Assembly: GCF_009769735.1 (NCBI RefSeq)
Contig: NZ_WSRO01000001.1
Span: forward strand, 62,001 to 126,000
Direction of reading: 5' to 3'
Source: Streptomyces sp. BA2
Lineage (GTDB): Bacteria > Actinomycetota > Actinomycetes > Streptomycetales > Streptomycetaceae
DNA: 64,000 nt
Positions 510 through 53,766 of the stretch are shown here, piece after piece (within the stretch, counting starts at the first letter, position 1; the number at the start of each line of letters is the position of its first letter). The notes beneath the pieces were generated by a model. It was not told the origin of the DNA, searched no databases, and was given only the letters and a program-made list of their open reading frames with translations. A program made the translations under genes and the position numbers.

Positions 510-516
510 GGTCGCG

Positions 517-1440: not shown

Positions 1441-2959
1441 CGGGTACGGCGAGCAGCCCGTCAACGGGGCACCGGCGAAACTGCAGGATGTGCTGAGCCA
1501 GGCCCTGCGGCCCGCAGCTCCGGGCGCGGCGGGCGCGGTGGCGCACACGCGTCGCTCGGCGGTGGCCTTGGCGTCCCCCACGGCGGTGGAGGTCAGCGAG
1601 CAAGGAGCGCTTCCCGCGTCGCCGCAGGACATCGCCGACCTGCGGGATGCGGTCAGTGACGACATCGTCGCCGCCGACGACCAGGACCCGCTGCCCAACG
1701 AGTCTGCGCGCCGGGAGCGGGCACGCTCGCTGGTGGCCGAGCGGGTCTCGCGGTGGGCGGTCAACCAGGCCCCCCGCGGCAAGGCGCTGAGCCCCGCACA
1801 GGTGGAGACGCTCTGCCAGGCGGTCTACGACGCGCTGTTCCACGCCGGGCCACTGCAGAAGTACCTGGATGACCCGGACGTGGAGAACATCGTGGTCCTG
1901 GGCGACGACGTCCAGGTCGACTACTTCAACCGGCCCACCCTCAAGGTCCCCCCGGTCGCGCAGAACGACGAAGAACTGATCGCACTGATCAACCGGCTGG
2001 CTTCCAACTCCGGGCACAGGGAACGGCGATTGTCGGCTTCCTCGCCGATGGTCAGCTTCCGGCTGCCGGACGGCTCGCGCGCCGAGGCCACCACCCTGAC
2101 CCCGGTGCCGTTCCTGGGCGTGCGCCGCCACCGTGTGCTGACCTCCAGCCTGGAGCAGCTCCGGGAGTGGGGAACCCTCTCCCCCGCGCTGTCCGCGTTC
2201 TTGCACGCCCTGGTCCTGGCGAAGAAGAACGTCCTGTTCGCCGGGGACATGGGCACCGGCAAGACGTCCCTGCTGCGGGCCCTGGCGCAGAAGATCCCCG
2301 CGGAAGAACGCGTGGTCACTCTCGAATCCGATCGCGAGCTGTTCTTGGACCAGCACCAGGGCGGCGCGCAGTTCCTGGCGATGGAGTCCCGCGAGTCCAA
2401 CGGCGAGCTCGTCGACGGGCATCCGGTCGGGCAGATCAGCGTGGAGGACATGTTCCCGCACGCGCTGCGCATGCTGTCCACGCGCGTCATCGTCGGCGAG
2501 GTCCGCGACCGGGAGGCGATCGCGATGCTGCAGGCGATGAGCGCGGGCGGGGCCGGATCCATGTGCACCCTGCATGCCGCCTACCCCACGCTGGTCCTGC
2601 CCCGCCTGGTCACCTTGTGCCGGGGCATGCACCGCGACGACGTCCACGAACTGGTGGGCACCTCCATCAACTTCATCGTCTATCTGAAGCAGATCAACCA
2701 GACGAGGGTGGGCGGGCGGCGCCACCGGTTCATCTCGCATGTGCTGGAGGTGCAGCCCGGCGAGGGCGGCCACCCTTCCATTCAGGAGATCTTCGCCCCG
2801 AATGGTTCTGATCCGCGTGGGGTGCCGCAGCTGGCGCCCTCGTGCATCACCGAGTTGGAGGGTCTGGCCGGGTTCGACCGGCGCTGGCTGACCGTGCCCC
2901 AGTACGGGGCCTGGTCTACGCCGCTGGATCTGGTGGGCGGAACGGAGTCTGCGGCATGA
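1433..2959 (+). CDS. TadA/CpaF-type secretion ATPase
   Basis: 508 aa, normal for CpaF. After a variable ~100-residue N-terminus comes the family core: a conserved N-terminal domain (YLDDPDVENIVVLGDD), a Walker A motif GDMGTGKTS near residues 269-278, the Asp box region around DREL, and a Walker B-like RVIVGEVRDREA near residue 350 followed by GSMCTLHA. This hexameric cytoplasmic motor powers assembly of the Flp-like pilus. It overlaps tadZ upstream and tadB downstream (ATGA at 2956-2959). All nucleotide-binding motifs look intact. Confidence 0.93.
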   Translation: MADGYGEQPVNGAPAKLQDVLSQALRPAAPGAAGAVAHTRRSAVALASPTAVEVSEQGALPASPQDIADLRDAVSDDIVAADDQDPLPNESARRERARSLVAERVSRWAVNQAPRGKALSPAQVETLCQAVYDALFHAGPLQKYLDDPDVENIVVLGDDVQVDYFNRPTLKVPPVAQNDEELIALINRLASNSGHRERRLSASSPMVSFRLPDGSRAEATTLTPVPFLGVRRHRVLTSSLEQLREWGTLSPALSAFLHALVLAKKNVLFAGDMGTGKTSLLRALAQKIPAEERVVTLESDRELFLDQHQGGAQFLAMESRESNGELVDGHPVGQISVEDMFPHALRMLSTRVIVGEVRDREAIAMLQAMSAGGAGSMCTLHAAYPTLVLPRLVTLCRGMHRDDVHELVGTSINFIVYLKQINQTRVGGRRHRFISHVLEVQPGEGGHPSIQEIFAPNGSDPRGVPQLAPSCITELEGLAGFDRRWLTVPQYGAWSTPLDLVGGTESAA

Positions 2960-3927
2960 GCAGTGATCAGTGGAGTCTGCTCGCCGCGCTGTGCGGCGCG
3001 TTGATCGTGGGCGGGCTGCTGGTCGGCGTGCGCGGCGCGATCCGGGCGCCGGTAGCGGCGGGCCGGCCGCCGTCGCGGTGGGTGGTGCGGTGGCAGGCCG
3101 CGCAGGCCTCGCTCCCCGACGCCTGGGCCCGGCGGTATCGGTTCATTGTGATCGCCGCCGCGCTGGCCGCTGTCGGCGCCTGGCTGGTCTGGGCTCGTCC
3201 GGTGCACGGGCTGCTGGCGGGGGTGGTCGTGCTGGGGATTCCCTGGATCTGGAATCCGGCGGGGACCAGCAGCCGCGAGATCGTGCGCCTGGAGGCTCTG
3301 GCGGAGTGGATGCAGCAGCTGGCCGGGGTGCACGAGTCCGGCGGCACCCTGGACAGCGCGATCACCGCTTCGGCGACCCGGGCCCCACAGGTGATCCGTC
3401 CGCAGGTGCGGCTGCTGGCCGCACGGCTGCGGGTGGGCGCCAACCCTTCGCAGGCCTACCGACAGTTCGCTGATGCGTTCGCCGACGGCGCGGTCGACAA
3501 CATCGTGATGCTTTTCCTCACTCACGCCCAGGACCACGGGCCGGGCCTGAGTCGGGCCCTGCAGTCGATGGCTTCACTCACCGAGCAGGAAGCGATCTCC
3601 CTGCGCAGCCTCGACGCCAAGCGCGCCCAGGTCCGCACCGGAACCCGCTGGGTGTCGATCATCTCGTTGGCGATCGCGGTGTACATCCTGACCAACCCGT
3701 CGTGGGGCGGGATCTACCGCACCGCTACCGGGCAGTTGGTGATGTTGGTGCTGGGGGCGATGTTCGGTGGCGCGCTGGTGGGGATGCGCGCGCTCGCCCG
3801 GTCGCGGCCTGCGCCGCGTCTGCTGGCCGCGCTGCCGTCGGCTGCCGGGCTCAGTAACGGCACGCCCAGTGCGTTGGGCGTGGCTGTGAAGAACAAGAAG
3901 CAGAAGGTGAAGGGGGCCGCGCTGTGA
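2956..3927 (+). CDS. TadB-like type II secretion F-domain membrane protein
   Basis: 323 aa from the ATG inside the ATGA overlap with tadA; the frame runs further upstream but coupling favours this start. Hydrophobic segments lie near residues 8-25, about 68-100 and in the C-terminal third (WVSIISLAIAVYILT; LVMLVLGAMFGGALVGM). The central cytosolic part has the T2SSF helix pattern (VRLEALAEWMQQLAGVHESGG). In Tad systems TadB and TadC form the inner-membrane platform driven by TadA. The gene is followed by tadC with a GTGA overlap. Confidence 0.9.
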   Translation: MSSDQWSLLAALCGALIVGGLLVGVRGAIRAPVAAGRPPSRWVVRWQAAQASLPDAWARRYRFIVIAAALAAVGAWLVWARPVHGLLAGVVVLGIPWIWNPAGTSSREIVRLEALAEWMQQLAGVHESGGTLDSAITASATRAPQVIRPQVRLLAARLRVGANPSQAYRQFADAFADGAVDNIVMLFLTHAQDHGPGLSRALQSMASLTEQEAISLRSLDAKRAQVRTGTRWVSIISLAIAVYILTNPSWGGIYRTATGQLVMLVLGAMFGGALVGMRALARSRPAPRLLAALPSAAGLSNGTPSALGVAVKNKKQKVKGAAL

Positions 3928-4844
3928 TCTCGCCCGGAGCACTCGCGTGCGGTGCGGTGGTGGGTGGTGGGCTGTTTCTGCTGGTGCGGGAACTGCTGCC
4001 ATCCCGACCCGACATGGACGCGGTCCTGGACCGGCTGGAGAACACCACCCCGGGGTTCGGCCACTCCACCACCTCGACCTCCGCGGAATTGAGTAGGCGA
4101 CGTCGCCGGGCGGAGGGATCGGTGTGGGAGCGAGCTGGGGAGCAGATCCTGGCCTCGCACGGACACCGGCTGTCGGTGCCGCGCGCCGACTTGGAGCTGC
4201 TGAACAGGTCGGTGGCTCACCACGTCGGTACGAAGGTGCTGGGCTCGCTGCTGGCCCTGGTGATGGTGCAAGTCGGCGGGCTGCTGCTCAGCTTGGCGGG
4301 CTTTGGGCTGTCGTACGCGCCGCCGCTGTTGGCATCCGTCGTCTTCGCCGCTTACATCTGGTTCGACGCTGATGCCAATGTGCGGCGCCAGGCAAAGACA
4401 GCCCGTCTGGAGGTCCGCTATGCGATCGCCTCGTTCCTCGAGCGCGCGCAGTTGGAGCGGGGAGCCAATGTGGGCCCGGAGGCGGCGGTGCAGCGCACCG
4501 CCGAGGTCGGCGACCACTGGATCCTGACCCGGATCAGCGCCGCCCTCAAGCGCGCCGAACTCGCGGGGATCCCGCAGTGGGAAGCGCTCAAGCAACTCGG
4601 AGAGCAGCTGGCCATTCCCGAACTGGCCGCCCCTGCCGAGTCGTTCTCACTGGCCGGGGCCGGTGCCTCCATCCAGAAGACCCTGGCGACCCAGGCACTG
4701 CTGCTGCGCCAGCGGCTGCTGACCGACCGCGAGGCGGAGGCCAACTCAGCCTCGGAGCGTCTGGTGGTACCCGGCACGATCTTGTTCACGGTCGTACTGA
4801 TCATGTTCGCCTACCCGGCGTTCAGCGCACTGACCAACATTTGA
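3924..4844 (+). CDS. TadC-like type II secretion F-domain membrane protein
   Basis: 306 aa, GTG start within the GTGA overlap with tadB. A first membrane segment lies at residues 1-20, two more near 95-135 (VLGSLLALVMVQVGGLLLSL and LLASVVFAAYIWF), and the last at the C-terminus (ILFTVVLIMFAYPAF). The cytosolic part (SFLERAQLERGANVGPE; LKRAELAGIPQWEALKQLGE) matches the T2SSF domain. It is the partner of TadB in the pilus platform. A 53-nt gap separates it from the pilin-like gene. Confidence 0.9.
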   Translation: MISPGALACGAVVGGGLFLLVRELLPSRPDMDAVLDRLENTTPGFGHSTTSTSAELSRRRRRAEGSVWERAGEQILASHGHRLSVPRADLELLNRSVAHHVGTKVLGSLLALVMVQVGGLLLSLAGFGLSYAPPLLASVVFAAYIWFDADANVRRQAKTARLEVRYAIASFLERAQLERGANVGPEAAVQRTAEVGDHWILTRISAALKRAELAGIPQWEALKQLGEQLAIPELAAPAESFSLAGAGASIQKTLATQALLLRQRLLTDREAEANSASERLVVPGTILFTVVLIMFAYPAFSALTNI

Positions 4845-4897
4845 CGATCAACAACCGCGACGCTGAGGTGCGTGGTGGAGACGAGGGGACACAGATC

Positions 4898-5119
4898 ATG
4901 AGGCTCATCGCTCTTGACCAGGCCGTCATCCGGCTGCACACCGCCTGGCTGACGCGGGTGGAGAAGATGTCCGGCGCCCGCCGGGATGCCGGGATGGAGA
5001 CCTTGGAGAAGCTGATCCTGGGGGCCGTCGTGCTGGGGGTGGCCGTCGCGTTCGGCACCGTGTTCAAGGGCACCTCCGAGACGCTGATCGACCGGTTCAA
5101 GGCCGCTGTCGGCGCATGA
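4898..5119 (+). CDS. Flp pilin-like small membrane protein
   Basis: 73 aa. The start is ATG 4898, about a dozen nt after the purine-rich GGAGACGAGGGGAC. A charged N-terminus is followed by a single hydrophobic helix (LEKLILGAVVLGVAVAFGTVF), with a glutamate just before it as in type IVb pilins. Size, a single helix and position directly after tadC fit the major Flp pilin or an actinobacterial equivalent. A prepilin cleavage site is not obvious. Its stop overlaps the next gene. Confidence 0.72.
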   Translation: MRLIALDQAVIRLHTAWLTRVEKMSGARRDAGMETLEKLILGAVVLGVAVAFGTVFKGTSETLIDRFKAAVGA

Positions 5120-27780: not shown

Positions 27781-28362
27781 TCAGGTCAGACCGGCTGTCG
27801 TGAACGTGACTAGTCCGTGGCCCACTTGTTCCTCCACGCCGCCAGGGGCGAGACAGTCGAGTGGGTTGGTGGTTTGAGCGATTACTTCCTTGAAATCGGC
27901 TCCCTTGAACTGGCCGTCCGCCACCACTCCGCTGACGGTGTGTACTGTTTGGCCACCAGCATCCACACCCTGCGCGTAAGCGTCATTGATTTGGCTGTAA
28001 GGGCTGTTGGCCCAATCTTCCCATTGCACGGTGATGTCCATGCTGGGATTGGGGGGAGGGACCTCAAGACAGCTTCGCGGACCGACGAACTCGCCGTGGT
28101 GGGAACCTGCAGCAGGGATCGATCTGCCTGTTGCTGTCGTGCAATTCTTATACTTTACGTCATAGGTGATGGTGTGGCTCTGAGGTTGAAGAGTAAGGCC
28201 AGGTGAGAACTTGACGGTCGAATCGACTTTGCATGTCACCACGTCAAGGGCCTTGACCGGCAGTGTTGCGGTGGTGGCAGTGCTCGCCGTAGCCGCAGCA
28301 GTTGAGGCAAATAACGCCAGAGTCGCAGCAATAAGAATAGTTACTTGATGCGTCCGATGCAT
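27781..28362 (-). CDS. Secreted protein of unknown function
   Basis: 193 aa; AGGAGG precedes ATG 28362. The N-terminus MHRTHQVTILIAATLALFASTAAATAST is a classical signal peptide. The mature part has several cysteines (VVTCKVDS, KYKNCTT, PRSCLEV, LDCLAPGG), so two disulfides are possible. It starts 250 nt downstream of the first ubiquitin-domain gene on the same strand. It is less GC-rich than the pilus operon. No family recognised. Confidence 0.8.
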   Translation of the reverse strand: MHRTHQVTILIAATLALFASTAAATASTATTATLPVKALDVVTCKVDSTVKFSPGLTLQPQSHTITYDVKYKNCTTATGRSIPAAGSHHGEFVGPRSCLEVPPPNPSMDITVQWEDWANSPYSQINDAYAQGVDAGGQTVHTVSGVVADGQFKGADFKEVIAQTTNPLDCLAPGGVEEQVGHGLVTFTTAGLT

Positions 28363-28611
28363 GTGGAACCTCCTGAAAAATGGCCCTGTGCAGAGGAGTC
28401 CGCACAGGAGCTGTCAGCATCACATCAATCAGTTTCTGTTCAGGCCAACCGGGTTGGGCCTATGGGGTGAGCCCCGCCGCTTCTTCAAGCTGCTCCGGGA
28501 ACGCCCGGGCCGACCAGGCGCGGGGCCCCCTGCCAGCGCACCGAAGCTTCTCGGACCTTTCCGCAGCTGCGGGCCCAGCTCAATGCGACAGCATCCCGGC
28601 AACGGCTGCGG
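28363..28611 (-). other. Leader/intergenic region between ubiquitin-domain gene and secreted-protein gene
   Basis: 250 nt with no gene. It is GC-rich with several short dyads. It may carry the promoter of the 27781-28362 gene, but the shared GAGGGCAA motif is not present. Confidence 0.35.
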
Positions 28612-29121
28612 CTAGTCCAAGAGGTGGAGGGTGCTGTCCGGCTCGATCCCGTAGTAGGCCAGGGTTCGCCCGTCCTCCAGCCACTTGCCCTCGAAGATCA
28701 GACGCTGCTGGTTCGGCGGGATGCCTTCCTTGTCCTGGATCTTGGCCTTAACGTTTTCGACCAACTCGTCGCTCTCGACGTCGAGGGTGATGGTCTTCCC
28801 GGTCAGCGTCTTGACGAAGATCTGGAAGGGCGCCCTCTGCGGCGGACTACCCACGCCACTGCCGATCAATGCGACGCAGCCATTGTTGCCGGGACTGCTG
28901 GGCAACCCGCCACCAGCGCCGCCCCCTTCAGTAACAGATACGGTGAGACGGGTGACACCGGCCGGCACAGTGAAGTTGTGGTTGCCCGGCGTGCCGAATG
29001 ACCCATTGGCCGCATGGGTGGGGGTGGCTCCGGCCATCAGTAACAGGACACCGGCCACGGCCGTGACCCCGGCCACGACCTGCCGATTTCGGAATCCTAA
29101 CAAACGAAGGAAAGACGTCAT
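28612..29121 (-). CDS. Secreted glycine-rich protein with C-terminal ubiquitin domain (copy 1)
   Basis: 169 aa. Signal peptide about 1-37 (basic start, [22 protein letters not shown]). A short glycine-rich beta domain follows ([34 protein letters not shown]). Residues 99-169 are ubiquitin: [46 protein letters not shown] and DSTLHL. By hand 53 of the 69 positions 2-70 match human ubiquitin. Lys6, 11, 27, 29, 33 and 48, Leu8 and Ile44 are kept; Lys63 is Pro and Val70 is Leu. It ends one residue after position 70, so it lacks LRLRGG and cannot be conjugated conventionally. No E1/E2/JAB genes are nearby. Likely acquired from a eukaryote or virus; role unknown. Confidence 0.93.
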
Positions 29122-29479
29122 AATGTTCCCTAATCTCCAAAGCAGACCATGCGCCTGCTTACCATTACAAAGCTAACAATGCTGACGCTCCCGGAGCTGT
29201 ATCGAAACGCGGGCGATCTCGCCTGGTGGCCAGCATCGCCGAGGCCGTAGCCCCACCAGGCGATAAGCGTCCCCCTGAGCGTCGGCTACCTCGATTACAT
29301 TCGGGTTGAGATGGTTCGCCACACTAACCATGATTCCATCACCCTTTACGACAAAGAGACCCCGCGTTTCGAGTTGCTCGGTCCGAATGACCGAGGTGTT
29401 CGCATCTACGCTCTGATCTCACTCCACAGCATAGGAAAGCAGCACATGACAACCCATGACGCGGAGTTGATCAATGCCC
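29122..29479. other. Upstream region of ubiquitin-domain gene 1
   Basis: 358 nt without a recognisable gene. It includes the untranslated leader of the minus-strand ubiquitin gene, with weak AGGGAA before the start. The shared GAGGGCAA promoter was not found. Confidence 0.35.
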
Positions 29480-30533
29480 CTAACGACCTCGTGCACAGTA
29501 GGCCGTGGCTTGGTGCCCAGGCGTCTCGTTGAACTGTTCATGATGGGGGTCGGGGCACGTGAGTTGATCGTTGCGGAGTATCGGGTCACCGGGCTGTCGC
29601 CGGATGTGATCGCTGAACTTGTCGCCAAGGTAGGGCCGTTGTGGCACGATCAGCATCAGGCTCGGCTCACCGCTCGTCAGCGCAAGCGGGCGGGGGGCGC
29701 CGGGGCGAAGCATCAGCTCGTCTTCGTCGACCGGCTGCTGGCGACCTTGGTGAACCTGCGGCATGCACCACTCATGACGTGCTGGCCTGCTGGTTCAGCG
29801 TGGACCGTTCCACCATCACCCGCGCCATCGGCGAGGTGAGGCCGCTGTTGGCCCGGCGAGGCTGCACCATCGCGTCAGGTGTCCGACTGCGCACCCTCGC
29901 CGAGGTCATCGAGCACTTGGGAGCCAGCGATCAGACCGGCATCATCGACGGCACGGAGATCCGTGTGCGACGTCCGGCCGTGGGCCGTAAGGACCGGGAC
30001 AAGTTCGTCTCCGGCAAGACCAAGCAGAACGCCGTGAAGTCCATGGCCTTCACGGACGACGAGGGGCGGTTGCTGTTCTGCAGTCCGGTCCGTCCGGGCA
30101 GTTGCCCGGACATCACCCAGGCCCGCCAGCTCGGGCTGGTGAGACTCCTGGCCGACGGCCCGTTCATGGAGATCCTCGCGGATGCCGGCTACCAGGGCAT
30201 GGGTGCACAGACCGGCGGGCGCGTGGTGACGCCGCCTCACCGCAAGTTCAAGAAGAACGCTCCCCCTAGCACGAGGCAATGCACGAGGAACAGCGCAAGG
30301 CGCACTCCTCCCGACGCATCCGTGTCGAGCACGGCATCGCCCACCTGAAGAACTGGCGAGCCCTCGCCCGTCACCACGGCCGCCGTGAGCACATGAGCGA
30401 CATCGTCCAAGCCGTTGCCGGGCTCCTCTCGCACCAGCAGACCGCCACTCTGTCCAGCCGTCCTCGAGCGTGAATCGTCGACCACGGCCGCAGCCCTCGA
30501 CACGTCACGGCTTACTGTGCACGAGGTCGTTAG
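29480..30533 (+). mobile_element. IS5-like insertion sequence (DDE_4 type)
   Basis: The ends carry inverted repeats of ~28 bp: CTAACGACCTCGTGCACAGT at 29480 and its complement ending at 30533, with a few later mismatches. It contains one frameshifted transposase. Confidence 0.8.
29484..30473 (+). pseudogene. IS5-like (DDE_4) transposase, two frameshifts
   Basis: The N-terminal part (LVPRRLVELFMMGVG; LSPDVIAELVAKVGPLW; RLLATLVNLRH) shifts frame near 29765. It then continues THDVLACWFSVDRSTITRAIGEVRP, GIIDGTEIRVRRP (D) and EILADAGYQGM (D). It shifts again near 30262 to EEQRKAHSSRRIRVEHGIAHLKNW (E). The DDE residues survive, but two shifts make expression unlikely unless programmed. Confidence 0.85.
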
Positions 30534-36405: not shown

Positions 36406-36707
36406 CCACCCGCCCCACAGGGCAAGCCAGTTCAGATGCCACCCGATCATGCATCAGACCCGTCTGGTTGTGGGGAACCGTCAGCACGGCCGTGGAGCCT
36501 GGCATCACCTTCGACACCGCTGCCGGCAGCTCGTCAGTAACCCCAACTTCCCCAGTTGCACCACTCGTTTGACATCCCTCGAGCCACCCATGTGAGACAG
36601 GGCCGCGAGAGTGAGAGTTCCGTTTTCTTACGGCTTCGGGGCGTGAGCACCATCTAGCTTTACAGCGGGCGGACACAGGGTCTGTCCTGGCCTTTTAGGG
36701 AATGCTC
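36406..36707 (+). other. Upstream region of ubiquitin-domain gene 2
   Basis: About 300 nt without a supported gene. The shared GAGGGCAA promoter was not found. A weak AGGGA precedes the start. Confidence 0.35.
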
Positions 36708-37691
36708 ATGCTCTCTGTCTTATGTTTTTCAGGCTTGCGTGCCCGGCAGGTGATGGCCGGAGTCGCGGCCACGGTCGGCGTCCTGCTGCCGGCGTCCGGG
36801 ATGACTCCTGCCCATGCGGCCAAGGTGCCGTCCCACACGCCGGGCGACTCCCGCTTCGCCATGCTGACCGGCAAGGTGTCCTACAGCGTGCCGGGTACCT
36901 ACAGCTTCACTGTGCCAGCCGGTGTCACCCGTATCACCACATCCGTCACCGGCGCCGGCGGAGGCGGCGGAGGCGCTGGAGGCGTGCTTGGCTACTTCGG
37001 AGGCGGCGGAGGCGGCGGCGCCACCGTGCACTGCACCCTGCAGGTTCACCCTGGCGACACCCTAAGCATCCACGTTGCAGCAGGCGGTACCGGCGGTCTG
37101 GGCGACCAGAATGGTGAGAACGGGGATACCTCCCAGAGCGCTAACGGCAAAACCAACCTGGCTCAGGCCAACGGCGGCGCAGGCGGCCAAGGCTCCGGCC
37201 AAGGAGGTTTTGGAGGAACGGGTGGCAGCGCCGCCCTCTGCCAGAGCAGCAAACCCAAACTCCACTCCGGGAGCCCCGGAGCCCCGGACAGCGCCAGAGA
37301 CGTTACCAGCACCGCCGGAGGCGCACCCGGCGCACAGGTACCGAAGGCCTGCCCAGTCGGCACCGGACAGGGTGGCAACGGCGGGGTCCTCGACAACGCC
37401 GGCAGCCCCGGTAACAACGGCTGCGTCGTCCTGAGCGGCAGCGGCGTGGGCGCTCCGCCGAAGAAGCCGCCCTTCCAGATCTTCGTCAAGACGCTGACGG
37501 GGAAGACCATCGTGATCGAGACCAGAAGGAAGGACACAATCGAAACCGTCAAGGCCAAGATCCAGGACAAGGAAGGCATCCCGGTGGACCAGCAGCGCCT
37601 GATCTTCGAGGGCCAAGAGCTGAAGGACGGACGCACCGTGGCCTACTACAAGATCAAGCCGGACAGCACCCTCCACCTCGTCCTGAAGTAG
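36708..37691 (+). CDS. Secreted glycine-rich protein with C-terminal ubiquitin domain (copy 2)
   Basis: 327 aa from ATG 36708 (36702 is in frame; 36708 aligns with copy 1). Signal peptide ~1-36 ending TPAHAA. Residues ~55-250 are a full glycine-rich domain ([41 protein letters not shown]) with two cysteine pairs, closing with [15 protein letters not shown]. Residues 256-327 are ubiquitin ([53 protein letters not shown]). About 51 of 70 positions match human ubiquitin. Leu8, Ile44 and Val70 of the hydrophobic patch remain, Lys48 is Gln and Lys63 is Pro. It stops at position 72, without Gly-Gly. Paralogue of copy 1, which lacks most of the glycine region. Confidence 0.93.
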
Positions 37692-39525: not shown

Positions 39526-39720
39526 CACCGATGAGCTGGTCAAGAAACCGCTTCAGCCGCCCCGAGTCCCACTCCAAAGACGAAACACCAGACCAAAGCA
39601 GTTCAGTGCCCTTAAAGATCACTGCTACACACCACGCGCTTGGGGGCAGGACTGCGGGCTGGGACGCCCCGTGACAGGACACGTCCCGGGGCCTGCCAAG
39701 CCGCCGCAACGCGCTCCGGC

Positions 39721-39751
39721 GAGGGGGGGACATACAAGAAACGACATATAA
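39721..39751 (+). promoter_or_regulatory. Shared promoter of the 39802 glycine-rich gene
   Basis: GAGGGGGGA is followed, 16 nt after the aligned hexamer, by TATAAG at 39746-39751, about 50 nt before the start codon. Confidence 0.6.
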
Positions 39752-39801
39752 GCGTCACAAGGTGCCTTTGGGCAACATCACGCAGGAATACAGGACTTTT
39801 C

Positions 39802-40590
39802 ATGCCTTCACAGTCTTGGACCGAGCCTGGCCAGCATGAATGGTTAGTGCCGCCTGGGGTGACGAGTTTAACTGTAGAACTCTGGGGCCCTGGCGGAGCC
39901 GGTGGTTTCTCGGGCTGCAACAACGCCGGCAGTGGCGGTACCGGCGGCAACGGCGGAGTTGGTACTTATCTCTACCAAAGGAACTATGGCGTTTCCCCCG
40001 ACCAAAGGATTTTCTTCTATGTAGGCATTCCGGATACCGCATACAAAGGGCACGGGGCAACGATTCTCTATGATGGCGACATCGAGACGCTCAAGCTTGT
40101 TGCTGGTAGCGGAGGCGAAGGCGGCTGGGGCGGTGACGGCGGTTACCACAGTGGAAAAGGAGGTGACGGTGGCGACGGCAACGGCCGCAACGGACGGAGC
40201 GGAGACGGCCCCGATGGTGGTAGCGGTGGTGGTGAGGGCAGCTCTGGCAGCGAAGGCGCTTTCGCCAATGGCGGTAACGCCGGTTATGGCGGTTTTGGCT
40301 ATACCCCGGCACGTCGCCACTATGTCGCGCCTGGCGGCCTAGCGGGCGGCCGCGCAGCAGACTCCCGATCGGGAGGCGGTGGAGGAGCAGGCGGAGGTCA
40401 AGGGGAGTCCCTCTATTGGGAGGGCTACACCATTGTCGATCGAGTGAACCGCGGCACGGGGACAGACAACTTCGCTGGCCTCCCGACCGCTCTCACCGCA
40501 GCAGGGGGCGCGGGCGGCAGCCCTCCGAAGGGTTGGGGGCGGGGCGCACCTGACGCCGGAGGCGGCGGGGCTGTCAGGATCACTTGGTGA
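39802..40590 (+). CDS. Stand-alone glycine-rich domain protein
   Basis: 262 aa. It opens WTEPGQHEWLVPPGVTSLTVELWGPGGAGG and ends GGGGAVRITW, the same beginning and end as the glycine-rich domain of the hemopexin fusions. About 35 percent glycine in (GG-x)n runs between, interrupted by hydrophobic strands (QRIFFYVGIPDTAYKG; TLKLVAGSGG). There is no signal peptide and no hemopexin domain. Comparable domains (ALK glycine-rich domain, phage S16 adhesin tips) pack as polyglycine-II helices; the likeness is by pattern. The start at 39802 has only a weak ribosome site. Confidence 0.85.
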   Translation: MPSQSWTEPGQHEWLVPPGVTSLTVELWGPGGAGGFSGCNNAGSGGTGGNGGVGTYLYQRNYGVSPDQRIFFYVGIPDTAYKGHGATILYDGDIETLKLVAGSGGEGGWGGDGGYHSGKGGDGGDGNGRNGRSGDGPDGGSGGGEGSSGSEGAFANGGNAGYGGFGYTPARRHYVAPGGLAGGRAADSRSGGGGGAGGGQGESLYWEGYTIVDRVNRGTGTDNFAGLPTALTAAGGAGGSPPKGWGRGAPDAGGGGAVRITW

Positions 40591-42741: not shown

Positions 42742-42765
42742 GCAACCGCTGGTCCTTAGCGGGAG

Positions 42766-44198
42766 TTACCAGGTGATGCGGGCGGCGCCGTTGCCTCCGG
42801 GGTTGCCTGGGGTGCCGCCGAATCCGATGGTGCTGTCGGAAAAGCTCGTGTAGGGGGTGCGGGGGTCGCCGTCGGCGCAGGGTTTGAAGAGGGCTCCTGT
42901 GGGATAGTTGCTGGGCCCTTGAGCGCCGCCCCCACCCCCTCCTCCACTGGCATAGTAGCCAGAGCCGCCGCCGGTGCCACCGCTGCCGAAGCCTCCGAAG
43001 CCGGCACCGCCACCACCACCGCCACCACCGCCGAACGAGCGGGGGGAACGTCGGTTGGTTTGGCCATTTTGCCCTGGGCCGCCGCCTGGGCTGCCGCCTG
43101 CGCCTCCGATGCCGCCGCCGCTGCCTCCGGAGCCTTCTGCGCTGCTGCCGTTTCCTCCGGAGCCTCCTGTGCCGTTGCTTCCGTTGAATTCTCCGGCGCC
43201 GGTGCCAGCTCCGCCAGCTGCACCGGCGCCGCCTCCACCGCTGCCGCCTGTGCCGCCTGTTCCACCGCCTCCTGTGACGTTGCATCCGTTGCCGCCTGCG
43301 CCGCCTCCTCCGCCTGCGTAGAGGTTTTGGTCGGGGCAGGAGGTGTAGTCGCCAGGGGCACCGACATGGACGGAGAGTTGGGAAGGGGCAGGCTTGATGA
43401 TGTTTCTGATGTAGGCGCCGGCTCCGCCGTTGGCACTGCTGCTGCCGCTGCCTCCGGGTCCCCAGAGTTCGACGGTGACCTGTGTGGCGATGGTGGGGAT
43501 GTTGCACTGCTGGTCGCTGGGGGTGGTGTAGGTCCGCATGCGGGCGGTTTTGGTGCTGGGGGTGACGGGGCACCAGGTGGTGTCGGTGTCGAGGTGTGCT
43601 TTGTCTTGGACGTTGCCGGATGTTCCGTCGAGGGTGGGTGCGGCCCAGGTGAGGCCGAGGTGAAGCCGTCCTCGGGCATGTGGGTGGTGGCGTCGATGAG
43701 GTAGCACCAGTTGTCGCCGAAGAACCAGATCTTCTTTCTCGTGTCCGCGGTGAAGAAGGCGGCGTCGACTTTGTTGAGGGCGAAGGCTCCCCCGTAGCCG
43801 AATACTGAGGAGATGGGTATGGGGTCGGTGACGGCGTCGGTTTTGGGTGTGTGGTCGGTGTAGGAGCCTGTTGCTTCGAGGGTGTAGTAGATGCAGGTGG
43901 TGCCGTTGAACAGGTAGATGTGTTTGGTGTCTACGCAGAGGGTGCCGTCGACGGTGTTCCAGGGGATGGCCCAGTGGCCGAACAGGCCGGGGTCTGCTGA
44001 CGAGGTCCCTACGAGTTTTCCCTGGTGTTGGGGGTCGGGTGTGTCGCCGAACCAGGGCCGTTTGGTGCCGGACCATTCGTAGCGGTCGTAGGTGTTGGCT
44101 GCGGTGTTGAGGCAGTACAGGCTCGGTGCGCGGTGGCCGTTGCCGTCAAAGGGGGTTTGCACTGCCGGCGCTGAGAACGCCGCATTATAGGATTTCAT
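42766..44198 (-). pseudogene. Hemopexin-like/glycine-rich protein, copy A (frameshifted)
   Basis: From ATG 44198 (MKSYNAAFSAPAVQTPF) the frame covers the hemopexin-like part (VDGTLCVDTKHIYLFNG; VDAAFFTADTRKKIWFFGDNWCYLID). Near 43665 EDGFTS is joined out of frame to the segment encoding GLTWAAPTLDG, with the ~40 residues between them in copy B missing. In the second frame the glycine-rich domain is intact, to GNGAARITW at 42766. A deletion therefore separates the two domains, unless frameshifting occurs. Arm A of the inverted repeat; it keeps a good shared promoter. Confidence 0.85.
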
Positions 44199-44366
44199 GT
44201 CCTGGCCTATTTCGGTCGAGGTTGGCGGGGTGCCGGGCGGGCGGTGTTTCACCCCTTGTCATGGCAGGCCGGGCTGCCAGGCAACTAAACGAACCAGGCT
44301 CTCACCCGCGCCTGCCTTCAGGGGACGCACCGGGCGGCGCTGTCCCCCTACTTCGTTTCTCGCTCC

Positions 44367-46082: not shown

Positions 46083-46451
46083 TAGTTTCCGCCGGCGTTG
46101 GATTGATCACCGCTCACGACGGTCTGCGTCTGGACAGAGCAAGACGGACAAGGTTCGCCTGACCTCGCCTCGACAGCTGCCTCGGTCATTGAAACTGCCC
46201 GAGCATGCCCATGGACCATGCTGCCGCCCCGGGAACCTCCGAGAACCCCGACAGAATCCAGGCTGAGAACCGTGCCGTCCCTGCAACGCAGCGTTGGGGA
46301 AAGTTGGAGGGCGGGGCGGGCCGGGGAGGACATAGAAGGATTTACAGCGCTCGCCTCGAGGTGTGAACGGCGCCTCCAGGTGTCCCGCGCAGGCGTGGGG
46401 CCTCTGCCCCATCGCCGGAAATCCTGTTTGAGCCATGAGAGGAATTTACAG
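46083..46451 (+). promoter_or_regulatory. Leader of MABP gene with a weak shared promoter
   Basis: GAGGGCGGG at 46306-46314 is followed after 16 nt by CATAGA at 46331, about 115 nt before the start. This fits the family layout but not the best consensus. Confidence 0.4.
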
Positions 46452-47396
46452 ATGTCGTGGGTAGCCGTATCAGATTTCTCGCTGACGTGCAGCAGCCCCC
46501 AGCCGGTCACGTTCTATGCGTGGAGGCAAATGGTCGAGGTGGTAATTCATATTAAACCGGTCGATGACACCGGAAACACAGTCTGGCTTGACCCCGGGCA
46601 CGTGCTGGACAACACGAAGCTTATCGATTACAACAGCCAAGATGAATTGACCTGGTGGGGGCATTCGGGCTGGTGCTATGGGAGCGTGAACGCCGGCGAC
46701 CCCACTCAGGATCCCGGCACGGGAGAAATAACTATTCCGTTCAATGTCTGGGCAGACTTTGATGCCGCCACAAATGGGACGCCCAAAAAGATCGGCGCCA
46801 AGGTCAAGGTTGATTCCGGTGTCTGGGTCTATTGTGCGTACGGCGCATCGAGGTGGCAGAGTAACGTCCAGCTCAACGCAGTTCGGGCGTCGGAAAGGAT
46901 CACTGACGTCATCATCCTGGACGGGCAGGACGCCCAGCCTCCGGCGGGATACACCAAAGAGCCCCATGACCTCAACAGCGGCACCCGCGGCGACCACCTG
47001 TACTTTGCCTACAGGAAAGACAGCAGATATGACCCGCTCACGAGCTTTTGCGTCGTAGGGCTGAAGCATGACCAAACCCCCTATCCGCCGGCAGGATATA
47101 ACTGGTGCAATCCGGGCACAGACCTCAACAAGGGAGCCGGCGGGGAATGGATTTACGCGGCTCAAACCACCGATCCGAGCCAGGGCCAGCCCGTAGACCA
47201 GCTTCAGGTCGAAGTGACGGACAATTCACATGCAAGTCCCCCCGCCGGATGGAACTATTACAACAAAGATCTGAATACAGGGGCAAGAGGTAATTACATC
47301 TTCCTGGAATGGCACAACCAGCCCTACAACACCAATAGGGCAGCGGAAGCGGGTCCGGTGCGATCCCGTCACGCAGCCGGTCCCGGCGCATCGTGA
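46452..47396 (+). CDS. Protein with three MABP-type beta-prism repeats
   Basis: 314 aa from ATG 46452, preceded by GAGAGG. Residues 1-150 are a beta-rich domain of unknown family (WVAVSDFSLTCSSPQPV; VVIHIKPVDDTGNTVWLDP). Three repeats follow, each with PPAGY/W..., DLN.G..G and a hydrophobic strand: HDLNSGTRGDHLYFAYRKD, TDLNKGAGGEWIYAAQTTD and KDLNTGARGNYIFLEWHNQPY. This is the MABP (MVB12-associated beta-prism) signature, known from ESCRT-I subunits, DENN proteins and bacterial MACPF toxins, where it binds membranes. No signal peptide. The last ~20 residues are probably read-through of poor sequence. Membrane or lectin-like binding is inferred. Confidence 0.82.
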   Translation: MSWVAVSDFSLTCSSPQPVTFYAWRQMVEVVIHIKPVDDTGNTVWLDPGHVLDNTKLIDYNSQDELTWWGHSGWCYGSVNAGDPTQDPGTGEITIPFNVWADFDAATNGTPKKIGAKVKVDSGVWVYCAYGASRWQSNVQLNAVRASERITDVIILDGQDAQPPAGYTKEPHDLNSGTRGDHLYFAYRKDSRYDPLTSFCVVGLKHDQTPYPPAGYNWCNPGTDLNKGAGGEWIYAAQTTDPSQGQPVDQLQVEVTDNSHASPPAGWNYYNKDLNTGARGNYIFLEWHNQPYNTNRAAEAGPVRSRHAAGPGAS

Positions 47397-47749
47397 ACGA
47401 TCGAATTCGCCGATACGACTGACAGGTAAAACAGCGGCCGACCCGGCCACGGTGTCGCGGGAAAACGAGACGGACGCGCCAGTCGGGTTCTGGAAATCCT
47501 GTCGCTGACCGCATTCCTTCAACGCGCCCTGAAGATGATCTAGTCCTGGGAGAACGTCCCACTGCTGATCAGGTCGTTGCCCCTGCCATTTCCGGGTCCG
47601 GGCCACATGTGGGCGCCCACACCCCGGCCCTGGACCGGATCAGGAAGCAGCGACGGACCGTGGATTGGGGGACGCCAAAGCCAAAGCGACAGGACCCGCC
47701 AGGCGCAGCCGCTGACCATGCGAATACGAACGACGGAGCGGCTGCCCTG
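47397..47749. other. Intergenic region
   Basis: No supported gene between the MABP gene and the promoter of the next hemopexin-like gene. Confidence 0.35.
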
Positions 47750-47754
47750 GAGGC

Positions 47755-47785
47755 GAGGGCAACCGGCGGGTGGCGCACCTATATC
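47755..47785 (+). promoter_or_regulatory. Shared promoter of the 47969 gene
   Basis: GAGGGCAAC, 16 nt after the hexamer, then TATATC within GCACCTATATC. The leader is about 124 nt and, apart from the promoter, differs from the leaders of the inverted-repeat copies. Confidence 0.68.
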
Positions 47786-47968
47786 AGATGTAGGAATTTG
47801 CGACGGGCGAGACGAGAACACGGCCGCAGTGATCGGGGTCTCAAGCCCAACGCATTACATCTCCCACGCTGTTCACACAGGTTTTGGCCGATGGGCGGTC
47901 CTGCAACCCGAAGCGCCCTGAAGGCACACCCGCTTAATGCCCACCCCGGCCCGGAAGGAAGCACCACC

Positions 47969-49438
47969 ATGATGACTACCTACAATGCGGCGTTCTCAGC
48001 GCTGGCAGTGCAAACCCCCTTTGACGGCAACGGCCACCGCGCACCGAGCCTGTACTGCCTCAACACCGCAGCCAACACCTACGACCGCTACGAATGGTCC
48101 GGCACCAAACGCCCCTGGTCCGGCGACACACCCGACAGCCAGGGAAAGCTCGTAGGGACCTCGTCAGCAGACCCCGGCCTGTTCGGCCACTGGGCCATCC
48201 CCTGGGACACCGTCGACGGCACCCTCTGCGTGGACCCCAGCCACGTCTACCTGTTCAACGGCACCGACTGCATCTACTACACCCTCGAAGCAACAGGCAC
48301 GTCCCCCGACCGCACACCAGAAACAGACGCCGTCACCGACCCCATGCCCATCTCCTCAGTATTCGGCTACGGGGGAGCCTTCCCCCTCAACAAAATCGAC
48401 GCCGCCTTCCTCTTCCTCACCGCCAACAAGAAAAAGATCTGGTTCTTCGGCGGCAACCAGTGCTACCTCATCGACGCCACCACCCACATCCCCGAGGACG
48501 GCTTCCGCGACCACGGAAACCCCGTAGCCCTCAACATCAACGACGCATGGCCCTCCCTCCCCGATGACCTCAAAAACGGCCTCACCTGGGCCGTCCCCGT
48601 CCTCGACACCAACGGCGACATCCAAGACCGCGCATACCTCGACACCGGCATCAACTGGTGCCCCGTCATCCCTAGCACCAAAACCGCCACCCTCATCCTC
48701 CTCACCAAACCCGGCAGGCAGCCCTTCACCATCCCCCCCGGCGTAGAGCAGGCCACCCTCGAACTCTGGGGCCCCGGAGGCAACGGAGGCGACGGCGGCG
48801 CCGGCGGCAACGGCGGCAACGGCGGCAACGGCGGAGCCGGCGCCTACATCAAGTACAACCTCCCGGTAGGCGCCAGCGCCGTTTACATCGGCGCCCCAGG
48901 CGACCGCACCAGCTACTCCTACCTCCTGGTGGCCGGCAGCGGCGGAGGAGGCGGCGGAGGAGGAGCAGCAAGCAGCGACGGTGGCTGGGGCGGCGGCAAC
49001 GGGGGCGCCGGCGGAGGCGGCGACGGGGGTAGCGGCGATGGTAGCCCCAACGGCGGAACGGGTGGGGGTGGCGGCACCCTCGGCGGCGTCGCCGAGGGCG
49101 GCAACCCCGGCGGCGGCGGGGGTGGCGGCGCTGGCGGCGGCGCTGGCGGCCTCGGCGGCAGCTGCGGCGGGGGCGCCCTCGCCAGCAACGCGGGTAGTGG
49201 CGACGGCCAGAACGGTGGCAGCGGTGGTAACCACGGTGGTGCCGGCGGCGGGGGCGGCAGCCAGGGCCCGAGCAATTATCCGACCGGGGCCGTCTTTAAG
49301 GAAGCCGCCGAAGGGTCCGACGCCCGTATCCCTTACATGGCATTCAACGACAGCACGGGATTCGGAGGCTACGGCGGCAAGCCGAACGGAGGCAAGGGCA
49401 GCCCCGGAGGCAACGGCGCCGCCCGCATCACCTGGTAA
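47969..49438 (+). CDS. Hemopexin-like/glycine-rich fusion protein, copy C
   Basis: 489 aa; GGAAGGAAG precedes ATG 47969. The N-terminal ~230 residues follow the family: YNAAFSALAVQTPFDGNGHR, VDGTLCVDPSHVYLFNGTDCIYY, IDAAFLFLTANKKKIWFFGGNQCYLID and DDLKNGLTWAVPVLD. The alternation of (I/V)DAAF, strand, WFFG and YLID is the hemopexin repeat pattern. From ~255 on comes the glycine-rich domain (VEQATLELWGPGGNGG ... GSQGPSNYPTG ... GNGAARITW). No signal peptide. Bacterial hemopexin-like proteins include Photorhabdus photopexins; heme binding is not implied by the fold. Its glycine tract has its own length and order of repeats. Confidence 0.88.
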   Translation: MMTTYNAAFSALAVQTPFDGNGHRAPSLYCLNTAANTYDRYEWSGTKRPWSGDTPDSQGKLVGTSSADPGLFGHWAIPWDTVDGTLCVDPSHVYLFNGTDCIYYTLEATGTSPDRTPETDAVTDPMPISSVFGYGGAFPLNKIDAAFLFLTANKKKIWFFGGNQCYLIDATTHIPEDGFRDHGNPVALNINDAWPSLPDDLKNGLTWAVPVLDTNGDIQDRAYLDTGINWCPVIPSTKTATLILLTKPGRQPFTIPPGVEQATLELWGPGGNGGDGGAGGNGGNGGNGGAGAYIKYNLPVGASAVYIGAPGDRTSYSYLLVAGSGGGGGGGGAASSDGGWGGGNGGAGGGGDGGSGDGSPNGGTGGGGGTLGGVAEGGNPGGGGGGGAGGGAGGLGGSCGGGALASNAGSGDGQNGGSGGNHGGAGGGGGSQGPSNYPTGAVFKEAAEGSDARIPYMAFNDSTGFGGYGGKPNGGKGSPGGNGAARITW

Positions 49439-52065: not shown

Positions 52066-52233
52066 GGAGCGAGAAACGAAGTAGGGGGACAGCGCCGCCC
52101 GGTGCGTCCCCTGAAGGCAGGCGCGGGTGAGAGCCTGGTTCGTTTAGTTGCCTGGCAGCCCGGCCTGCCATGACAAGGGGTGAAACACCGCCCGCCCGGC
52201 ACCCCGCCAACCTCGACCGAAATAGGCCAGAAC

Positions 52234-53766
52234 ATGAAATCCTATAATGCGGCGTTCTCAGCGCCGGCAGTGCAAACCCCCTTTGACGGCAACGGCCACC
52301 GCGCACCGAGCCTGTACTGCCTCAACACCGCAGCCAACACCTACGACCGCTACGAATGGGCTGGCACCAAACGGCCCTGGTTCGGCGACACACCCGACGA
52401 CCAGGGAAAACTCGTAGGGACCTCAGCAGACCCCGGCCTGTTCGGCCACTGGGCCATCCCCTGGAACACCGTCGACGGCACCCTCTGCGTAGACACCAAA
52501 CACATCTACCTGTTCAACGGCACCACCTGCATCTACTACACCCTCGAAGCAACAGGCTCCTACACCGACCACACACCCAAAACCGACGCCGTCACCGACC
52601 CCATACCCATCTCCTCAGTATTCGGGTCCACCTACAACAAATCCATGGTCTTCCCCCTCCCCAAAGTCGACGCCGCCTTCCTCACCGCCAACAAGAAGAT
52701 CTGGTTCTTCGGCAACAACCAGTGCTACCTCATCGACTTCACCACCCACACCCCCGAGCCCGACTTCCAAGACAGCAACGGAAAACCCACAGCCCTCAAC
52801 ATCAACGCCACAACCAACGCACAAGGAAACCATTGGACCGGCTGGGCCGGCCTCCCCGCCGACTTCACCAACGGCCTCACCTGGGCCGCCCCCACCCTCG
52901 ACGGAACATCCGGCAACGTCCAAGACAGCGCACACCTCGACACCGACACCACCTGGTGCCCCGTCACCCCCAGCACCAAAACCGCCCGCATGCGGACCTA
53001 CACCACCCCCAGCGACCAGCAGTGCAACATCCCCACCATCGCCACACAGGTCACCGTCGAACTCTGGGGGCCCGGAGGCGGCGGCAGCAGTGCCAACGGG
53101 GGTGCCGGCGCCTACATCAGAAACGTCATCAAGCCTGCCCCTTCCCAACTCTCCGTCCATGTCGGTGCCCCTGGTGACTACACCTCCTGCCCCGACCAAA
53201 ACCTCTACGCCGGCGGCGGAGGCGGCGCAGGCGGCAACGGCGGCAGCGGCATCGGAGTCAGGGAAGGCTGCGAAGGCGGCACCGGAGGCAGCGGCGGAGG
53301 CGGCAACGGCGGCACCGGCGACAGCGGCACCGGCGCCTCAGGGAGCAACACAAACAACGGCACAGGAGGCTTCGGAGGCAACGGCAGCAGCACAGGAGGC
53401 TCCGGAACCCAGGGCACCGCCCCAGGCGGCGGCGGAGGCGGCAGCGCTGGCGGCGCCGGACAAAATGGTGGCGGCTCCCCACGCTTGGTCGGCATGTTCG
53501 GCGGCGGAGGCGGTGGAGGCGGCGGCGCCGGCTTCGGCGGTTTCGGCAGTGGTGGCACCGGCGGCGGCGCCGGCAACTGTGGGGGCGGGGGCGGGGGCGG
53601 GGGCGGCGCTCAAGGGCCCAGCAACTATCCCACAGGAGCCCTCTTCAAACCCTGCGCCGACGGAGACCCCCGCACCCCCTACACGAGCTTTTCCGACAGC
53701 ACCATCGGATTCGGCGGCACCCCAGGCAACCCCGGAGGCAACGGCGCCGCCCGCATCACCTGGTAA
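52234..53766 (+). CDS. Hemopexin-like/glycine-rich fusion protein, copy B
   Basis: 510 aa, the longest copy. MKSYNAAFSAPAVQTPFDG, VDGTLCVDTKHIYLFNGTTC, then an extended loop (GSTYNKSMVFPLPKVDAAFL) before IWFFGNNQCYLIDF, and GNHWTGWAGLPADFTNGLTWAAP, the W..LP..... (I/L)..A element closing a hemopexin repeat. The glycine-rich domain starts at VTVELWGPGGGG and ends GNGAARITW. N-terminal two thirds nearly identical to copy A; the glycine tract contains a private segment (GIGVREGCEGG). Cysteines in the tract (TSCPDQN, CEGG, GNCGG) may cross-link it. No signal peptide. Confidence 0.9.
   Translation: MKSYNAAFSAPAVQTPFDGNGHRAPSLYCLNTAANTYDRYEWAGTKRPWFGDTPDDQGKLVGTSADPGLFGHWAIPWNTVDGTLCVDTKHIYLFNGTTCIYYTLEATGSYTDHTPKTDAVTDPIPISSVFGSTYNKSMVFPLPKVDAAFLTANKKIWFFGNNQCYLIDFTTHTPEPDFQDSNGKPTALNINATTNAQGNHWTGWAGLPADFTNGLTWAAPTLDGTSGNVQDSAHLDTDTTWCPVTPSTKTARMRTYTTPSDQQCNIPTIATQVTVELWGPGGGGSSANGGAGAYIRNVIKPAPSQLSVHVGAPGDYTSCPDQNLYAGGGGGAGGNGGSGIGVREGCEGGTGGSGGGGNGGTGDSGTGASGSNTNNGTGGFGGNGSSTGGSGTQGTAPGGGGGGSAGGAGQNGGGSPRLVGMFGGGGGGGGGAGFGGFGSGGTGGGAGNCGGGGGGGGGAQGPSNYPTGALFKPCADGDPRTPYTSFSDSTIGFGGTPGNPGGNGAARITW

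Follow-up and report, generated by a model that had tools for sequence, protein, structure and literature searches.

Ubiquitin is regarded as a hallmark of eukaryotic cells, and a gene of a Streptomyces strain that appears to encode a secreted ubiquitin raises the questions of how such a protein is built, where it comes from and what it could do outside its producer. The window analysed here, meaning the whole stretch of 64,000 nucleotides from Streptomyces sp. BA2, holds two such genes, copy 1 and copy 2, whose features are collected in Table 1. The reading towards which we lean is that both encode exported, non-conjugatable ubiquitins used as extracellular binding or decoy heads.

Table 1. 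Features of the two ubiquitin genes and of their surroundings (positions within the window)
Feature	Position	Strand	Description and basis
Neighbouring gene after copy 1	27781..28362	-	193 aa, signal-like start
Terminator-like stem-loop separating copy 1 from the neighbouring gene	28384..28409	-	one found against a shuffle mean of 1.0, not above chance
Copy 1, coding sequence	28612..29121	-	ATG start, 169 aa: signal-peptide-like start, Gly-rich remnant, linker, C-terminal ubiquitin
Copy 1, ubiquitin domain	28615..28827	-	residues 99-169, ubiquitin positions 1-71, without LRGG tail; Pfam, PDB matches, comparison with human ubiquitin
Copy 1, carrier end and linker	28828..28896	-	residues 76-98; sequence comparison
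Copy 1, Gly_rich_2 carrier remnant	28897..29010	-	residues 38-75; alignment, profile A3 match, junction codons
Copy 1, signal-peptide-like segment	29011..29121	-	residues 1-37; RNR n-region, hydrophobic core, THA|A end; by eye
Copy 1, leader	29122..29140	-	purine-rich, ribosome-binding-like stretch 5' of the ATG; by eye
Insertion-sequence-like unit upstream of copy 1	29480..30533	+	33-nt inverted ends (91%), transposase-like ORF by eye
Copy 2, coding sequence	36702..37691	+	329 aa: signal-like start, complete Gly_rich_2 carrier, C-terminal ubiquitin
Copy 2, Gly_rich_2 carrier (PF21722)	36891..37424	+	residues 64-241; Pfam
Copy 2, ubiquitin domain	37473..37688	+	ubiquitin positions 1-72; K48Q, K63P, without LRGG

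Genomic context

The genome amounts to 10.04 Mb in two contigs, is estimated to be 100% complete and carries the window on contig C1 (602,338 bases). Since all four reported 16S rRNA matches fall on contig C2 and a ParB-like ORF is recognised by eye near one end of C1, the latter is probably a plasmid. The ends of C1 share coding sequence when compared by eye (L145, 6-350; L148, 15028-15747), as an overlapping or repeated contig end would. Plasmid records sharing DNA with positions 24000-46000 of the window come from Streptomyces in 109 of 123 cases, and many of the listed matches are insertion sequences. The third-position GC content (GC3) of the ubiquitin parts, 0.93 and 0.92, lies slightly above the range of 14 other ORFs of the window (0.59-0.91).

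Several other genes of the window deserve mention in their own right. A run of the Tad/Flp-pilus type (CpaB-, TadZ-, TadA- and TadB/C-like by eye) occupies positions 21-5119 of this probable plasmid sequence, and a 392-aa ORF at 46218-47396 contains repeats of the form PPAGY..DLN.G..G..IY that resemble a beta-prism of the MABP type by eye, with no Pfam match up to an E-value of 0.01. Glycine-rich ORFs are present at 42756-44252 on the minus strand, at 47609-49438, 52180-53766 and 57446-58957 on the plus strand, and also at 39640-40590; an N-terminal half that looks hemopexin-like by eye is common to four of them, and most show an AARITW-like end in one frame read, again with no Pfam match up to an E-value of 0.01.

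Within the immediate surroundings, the family of the gene at 27781-28362 is matched in six of 81 genomes, the own genome included, where it occurs twice. A conserved pair formed by this gene and copy 1 is not claimed, given that the gene beside a diverged ubiquitin-like protein at L101 matches it weakly (28.5 bits, 28% of 152) and the family recurs. Scans of the window with Rfam at gathering level and for tRNAs returned no matches, the PADLOC models matched none of five proteins of the region, and a search of the own genome for E2 enzymes (PF00179) was as silent as those of the control genomes. At E ≤ 0.001 the own genome yields two ubiquitin-family matches, copies 1 and 2, and no other.

Architecture of the two copies

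The C-terminal domain of copy 1 belongs to the ubiquitin family PF00240, with an E-value of 1.7e-27 and 95.4 bits over residues 101-167 against a gathering cut-off of 25.4 bits in the Pfam scan, and that of copy 2 reaches 93.7 bits against the same cut-off; such E-values exclude a chance match for copy 1. Of 389 PDB matches to copy 1, the 60 listed are all ubiquitin itself, a variant of it or a fusion containing it, and in NCBIfam the two copies match Rad23 alone, below the threshold. Aligned without gaps, copy 1 and human ubiquitin are identical at 53 of 71 positions, or 53 of 69 without positions 1 and 71, both of which differ. Leu8, Ile44, His68 and Lys48 are retained and Lys63 is replaced by proline; the last residue corresponds to position 71, and L73-R74-G75-G76 are absent. 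This comparison bears out the original prediction, which had counted 53 of 69 ubiquitin positions by hand, with Lys48, Ile44 and Leu8 kept and LRLRGG lacking. A relation to ThiS/MoaD-like proteins was rejected: the Pfam scan, run to an E-value of 0.1, gave ubiquitin-type families only, and there is no GG end.

Both copies open with a signal-like start when read by eye, which for copy 1 would agree with the signal peptide proposed there. The short glycine-rich domain that had been described behind it fared differently: the glycine-rich stretch is present, but it is what an internal deletion has left of a domain some 180 residues long, and not a short domain of its own. The complete version is found in copy 2, which belongs to PF21722 (44.5 bits, gathering cut-off 24.3). 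Copy 1 is not matched by PF21722 in the Pfam scan; it gives a partial match to the carrier profile A3 (50.9 bits, model positions 6-86 of 232), about 150 residues of the copy 2 counterpart are missing from it, and a single cysteine remains. When the two proteins are aligned, their starts are identical in 38 of 81 columns, 17 of which are gapped, and linker plus ubiquitin in 67 of 93 (50 of 71 for the ubiquitin domains), whereas the central part of the carrier has no counterpart in copy 1. It is the shared carrier and linker, and not their joining in the tree described below, that indicates a common origin of the copies. In both, ubiquitin begins well inside the protein, at residue 99 or 258, so that the mature form would not start at ubiquitin Met1, and the final residue is Asp or Lys, not Cys.

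Neither copy presents the features of a conjugatable ubiquitin, as LRLRGG and Gly76 are lacking (the domains end at positions 71 and 72), Lys63 is lost in both and Lys48 in copy 2. The changes from human ubiquitin common to both are M1F, A46E, S57A, D58Y, K63P and E64D, to which copy 2 adds K48Q. For scoring, we assumed position lists for the core and for the Ile44, Phe4, Ile36 and Asp58 surfaces. By these lists, the core is unchanged at 13 of 14 positions in copy 1 and 11 of 14 in copy 2, and the four-residue Ile44 patch is kept at three and four positions, respectively. The wider ten-residue Ile44 surface is kept at seven in each, with A46E and an altered Q49 in both and K48 changed in copy 2. 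The Phe4 set retains five of seven positions in copy 1 and four in copy 2, the Ile36 patch one and two of three, and the Asp58 patch two of four in both. Among the 26 positions within 1-70 that are changed in either copy, 22 fall in segments 14-25 and 46-64, windows that were picked post hoc.

The Gly_rich_2 carrier and its heads

Residues 1-258 of copy 2, used as a query with 8000 candidates scored, retrieved 47 proteins; apart from copy 2 itself, the closest are P0122 and P0123, each with 60% identity. P0123, which comes from a single contig of 3,261 bases, carries a Kunitz_BPTI domain (PF00014; 61.6 bits, residues 231-282) after a ten-residue stretch, at the point where copy 2 continues into ubiquitin. 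Profile A3 in turn retrieved 69 proteins at E ≤ 1e-6 (again with 8000 candidates scored), including 19 at E-values below 1e-38. Two of these 19, copy 2 and P0123, bear a recognised head, and 15 stop at an end of the GCVVLTY type, as judged by eye; P0122 and P0129 have odd ends, also by eye.

Within the genus, the carrier profile matched 20 of 392 genomes, the own genome included and with seven candidates scored per genome. No recognised head was present at the readable carrier ends from these genomes (L121-L126, L135, L140-L142), the rest giving no clear frame, and Kunitz domains were matched in none of 323 genus genomes, the controls being silent too. The Gly_rich_2 proteins of Nonomuraea, Microtetraspora, Actinomadura and Actinoallomurus share with copy 2 the signal, the carrier and the conserved cysteines, but differ from it in having no C-terminal head. 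The carrier seems, from copy 2 and P0123, to accept exchangeable eukaryote-type heads, and the head swap rests on two proteins, since only copy 2 and P0123 carry recognised ones.

Distribution of related proteins

PF00240 was found in three of 392 genomes of the genus, three of 394 of the family and three of 396 of the phylum, with the own genome counted each time and the three draws overlapping. L003, from the same-genus genome G284 (733-1722), is a protein of 329 aa with a signal-like start and a C-terminal ubiquitin. In contrast to the window copies, its ubiquitin is near-eukaryotic and ends in LRLRG, with only the last glycine missing; its N-terminal part differs from theirs and has no Pfam match, and it is not adjacent to them in the poorly resolved tree. 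L143 is listed beside L003 for the same type of protein, that is, a signal-bearing one of this genus with a C-terminal near-eukaryotic ubiquitin. A signal-like start plus a diverged ubiquitin-like domain is encoded twice, at L101 (1498-2313, minus strand) and L103 (1372-1713, plus strand), both in one genome of another genus of the family. L004 and L102, from the same genus, are short ubiquitin-like ORFs without an obvious signal; together with L097-L100, from other genera of the phylum, they are excluded from all tallies, and L001-L005 and L086-L096 lie outside the set of 80 loci described below. L002 was disregarded, as it is copy 1 translated from the wrong strand.

A protein search with 8000 candidates scored returned mostly eukaryotic polyubiquitins or unnamed proteins among the 120 matches listed, apart from the window proteins. 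The phage collection contained no ubiquitin match, and the carrier part had no match in the plasmid collection, where pRUMAL01 of Ruminococcus albus 7 is the sole ubiquitin match. The pRUMAL01 protein (L005, 5923-6663), annotated as a ubiquitin family protein, has a signal-like start, ubiquitin and an extension of about 150 aa. In IMG/VR, contig L086 (4001-4210) encodes a signal-like stretch and a ubiquitin ending in LRLRGG, contigs L089-L091 encode a signal-like stretch and ubiquitin followed by a tail that is IPTL-CTERM-like by eye, and L095 (4001-4171) and L096 (4001-4198) hold short, diverged ubiquitin-like ORFs of 89 aa.

Apparently exported ubiquitin across prokaryotes

A scan of 84,980 prokaryotic species, with one genome per species and a four-row ubiquitin alignment of 71 residues (A2) as the query, found 341 stretches that encode a ubiquitin relative. 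The following tallies cover the best 80 of these 341 (L006-L085), some of which come from one genome (L016, L062). As this query stops where the tail starts or before it, the tail has little influence on the ranking. A signal-like stretch, as defined by a hydrophobicity rule of our own, stands immediately before ubiquitin Met1 in 69 of the 80, the same rule flagging 8.8% of random stretches from the region after ubiquitin in this set (286 of 3250). In 68 of the 69, position -1 is A, G, S or C and position -3 is small or aliphatic, with A-x-A in 41, so that cleavage of the signal would expose Met1. These 69 loci cover 11 named phyla, including an archaeal one (a metagenome-assembled genome, MAG), and one locus has no assigned phylum. 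By eye, 16 of the 80 have titles that do not mention a MAG, all of them among the signal-bearing loci; examples are Pseudomonas protegens FD6, Ruminococcus albus 8, Cohnella sp. OV330, Dyella sp. OK004 and Pedobacter cryoconitis. Among the 11 loci that have no signal-like stretch are cases of tandem or free ubiquitin in MAGs, which may be eukaryotic contamination.

Conservation in these 69 proteins is uneven. Lys6, Lys11, Lys27, Lys29, Lys33 and His68 are kept in 67-69 of them, Leu8 in 68, Lys63 in 64, Ile44 and Lys48 in 63 each and Val70 in 57. Gly75 is found in 17, Gly76 in seven and both in only five, and some positions vary freely, E16 being kept in 35%, T22 in 45% and S57 in 49%. At least 50 residues follow ubiquitin in 61 of the 69. 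Ten proteins, nine from the scan plus L003, were compared with Pfam; autotransporter domains were recognised in three and SLH, IPTL-CTERM, beta-helix and YDG/MBG domains in one each, and the remaining three gave none or weak Ig-like matches. The window copies resemble this set in combining a signal-like stretch with a ubiquitin that mostly has no GG tail, but in the 69 ubiquitin directly follows the signal, with any extension mostly after it, whereas in the window copies ubiquitin comes last and is more diverged. Judged from sequence, exported ubiquitin appears to be common in bacteria. The near-uniqueness of such a protein in bacteria, which had been assumed for copy 1, finds no support in these 341 matching prokaryotic stretches, of which 69 of the best 80 look exported. 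No paper on widespread exported bacterial ubiquitin, or on a fusion of ubiquitin to a glycine-rich domain, was found in the openly licensed PMC literature.

Evolution of the ubiquitin heads

The ubiquitin tree was built from 88 rows and 74 columns and includes all 69 signal-bearing rows, six of the 11 others and seven of eight fetched eukaryotic proteins. A single one of its 85 branches is starred. Horizontal acquisition, as originally proposed, is retained insofar as a eukaryotic origin is plausible; the donor, the direction and the root are beyond the resolution of 74 columns. The two copies join in this tree (SH-aLRT 93), with a program warning that long branches may join falsely; their end branches are long (0.99 and 1.2; the median is 0.14), and copy 1 has an odd letter make-up.

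Between the ubiquitin parts of both copies, the NG86 method gives a dN of 0.204 and a dS of 0.219, with a ratio of 0.93 (bootstrap 0.48-1.98). Of four regions compared, ubiquitin thereby ranks first, the linker giving 0.27, the signal 0.59 and the start of the glycine-rich domain 0.77. Because the GC3 is extreme, codon changes were also simulated under a simple model at a GC3 of 0.92. An omega of 0.2 produced too many synonymous changes (P=0.005), 0.3 was possible (P=0.10), 0.5 fitted, and 1.0 was mildly disfavoured (P=0.03, one simulation). Eukaryotic ubiquitin is nearly invariant. The heads of both copies evolve far faster than it and are probably, but not certainly, under constraint.

Comparison with known systems

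Bub/Bil systems are bacterial and combine divergent ubiquitin folds with E1, E2 and JAB partners in conjugation; a ubiquitin-like fold in bacteria is common to them and to the window copies, which differ in being signal-bearing and tail-less. Closer is BfUbb from Bacteroides fragilis, a protein exported by a signal peptide, as the signal-like starts seen by eye would predict for the window copies, and like them near-eukaryotic and without the C-terminal glycine. It consists, however, of signal peptide and ubiquitin only, with a C-terminal Cys, and mature proteins of its type start at ubiquitin Met1, which those of the window would not, their ubiquitin standing behind a carrier or carrier remnant and ending at position 71 or 72 with no such Cys. 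A later report is said to deal with the target of BfUbb. BfUbb is secreted, lacks the terminal glycine and inhibits ubiquitination in HeLa extract in vitro, and its complex with human E1 is visible only under non-reducing conditions, which is ascribed to the C-terminal Cys (PMC3352274). Since the window copies lack this Cys, this route to E1 is closed to them. Of 40 B. fragilis strains, 13 were inhibited by synthetic BfUbb, whereas ubiquitin of bovine origin was inactive, and no immunity gene seems to be required (PMC5705921). The same paper describes a secreted ubiquitin effector of nematodes, which is alike in being a ubiquitin exported to act on another organism, but is eukaryotic and has a C-terminal extension of 12 aa (PMC5705921).

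Proposed function and alternatives

In the reading that we slightly favour, copies 1 and 2 are exported, non-conjugatable ubiquitins that act outside the producer as binding or decoy heads. A Sec-type signal peptide would export both proteins, and the Cys-containing actinobacterial Gly_rich_2 carrier, complete in copy 2 and a mere linker in copy 1, would present the C-terminal head, as the arrangement of the domains indicates. The head, which is expected to fold, ends before L73-G76 and by established chemistry would be open neither to E1 activation, nor to conjugation, nor to DUB cleavage at Gly76. Non-covalent binding through the retained face (Leu8, Ile44, His68, the first hairpin and the helix) would then engage or sequester a partner, which may be a protein of a neighbouring eukaryote that binds ubiquitin or, as with BfUbb, one of competing bacteria. 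Since both E1 activation and conjugation require Gly76, the window copies are not conjugatable; a non-conjugatable and apparently exported ubiquitin is what the original prediction had described, and this part of it stands for both copies.

The PF00240 matches of both copies, the pattern of signal-bearing ubiquitin in bacteria with its surface-type fusions, the kept Ile44 patch and core, the clustering of 22 of the 26 changed positions in two segments, the lost tails, the joint at which related carriers end or P0123 continues into a Kunitz domain, the fit of an omega near 0.5 and the precedent of BfUbb were counted in favour of the binding head. Counted against it were the dN/dS of 0.93, the wider Ile44 surface and the losses in the Phe4 and Ile36 sets; the reduction of copy 1, without most of its carrier and all cysteines but one, which could make it a decaying paralogue; the position of ubiquitin away from the mature N-terminus, unlike in the 69 signal-bearing proteins among the best 80; and the derivation of the Kunitz swap from one protein (P0123), with none in 323 genus genomes and silent controls.

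The alternatives overlap with one another and with the binding head, so their probabilities do not add up to one. It is possible, although rather unlikely, that the copies are antibacterial proteins of the BfUbb type, which would bind a protein of related bacteria and inhibit them. In its favour, some of the 69 signal-bearing loci belong to lineages that we take to be free-living, such as Prochlorococcus, Rhodobacter and Methylolobus. Kunitz domains suit eukaryote-type targets, and their occurrence as a head on this carrier would sooner point to a target of that kind; the missing C-terminal Cys and the C-terminal position of ubiquitin also speak against an antibacterial role. In its support, BfUbb is the only exported bacterial ubiquitin with a demonstrated phenotype that was found in print (PMC5705921).

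A decoy aimed at eukaryotes such as amoebae, fungi, plants or animals, whose ubiquitin-binding proteins a tail-less ubiquitin would block, is improbable to a similar degree. The effect of BfUbb on HeLa extract (PMC3352274), the four-residue Ile44 patch and the Kunitz head on a related carrier agree with it. No injection or uptake device is linked to the genes, however, Lys48 is gone in copy 2 and Lys63 in both, and the wider Ile44 surface is incomplete. The decoy of host machinery put forward for copy 1 is one of several candidate roles; BfUbb, the only tested exported bacterial ubiquitin found in print, inhibits some B. fragilis strains (PMC5705921) as well as ubiquitination in vitro (PMC3352274).

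Less probable is that ubiquitin serves just as a stable fold that has no partner of the ubiquitin kind and forms a structural spacer or caps the surface. The long end branches, the relaxed dN/dS and the fusion of several bacterial forms to surface-type domains speak for this, but the near-complete retention of six of the residues tallied above (five lysines and His68), and of Ile44 in 63 of the 69 loci, would be needless for it. Improbable, too, and a little more so, is that copy 1 is a functionless, decaying duplicate of copy 2. Its internal loss of about 150 residues, its one remaining Cys, the insertion-sequence-like unit upstream and the dN/dS point in this direction; its open frame of 169 codons, its nearly intact core and its ribosome-binding-like leader point away from it, as does the simulation, in which an omega of 1 was mildly disfavoured. 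Eukaryotic contamination of the assembly, which the eukaryotic nature of ubiquitin and possible contaminants among the best 80 of the 341 loci (such as the tandem ubiquitin L012 in a MAG) might suggest, is rejected as extremely improbable, because two copies, with a GC3 of 0.93 and 0.92 in their ubiquitin parts, lie on a 602-kb contig of a two-contig genome estimated to be 100% complete, fused in frame to an actinobacterial carrier.

Implications

Beyond the binding head proposed for the two copies, a wider picture can be offered tentatively, at somewhat less than even odds. Tail-less ubiquitin may be a widespread and repeatedly domesticated extracellular head of bacteria, signal-bearing and often joined to surface-type domains, spread over 11 named phyla among the 69 loci of the best 80, with the lysines and the Ile44 face largely kept and the conjugation tail discarded. 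The lineage of the window would then have put it on a glycine-rich carrier whose head was swapped between eukaryote-type domains, ubiquitin and a Kunitz inhibitor, and is now diversifying. BfUbb from B. fragilis was the only exported bacterial ubiquitin found in the openly licensed literature. If the exported, tail-less form is common, bacteria would possess a class of extracellular proteins in which ubiquitin works without being conjugated, and their partners, whether in eukaryotes or in rival bacteria, become a testable question, for which a carrier with exchangeable eukaryote-type heads, if real, would offer a direct experimental handle.
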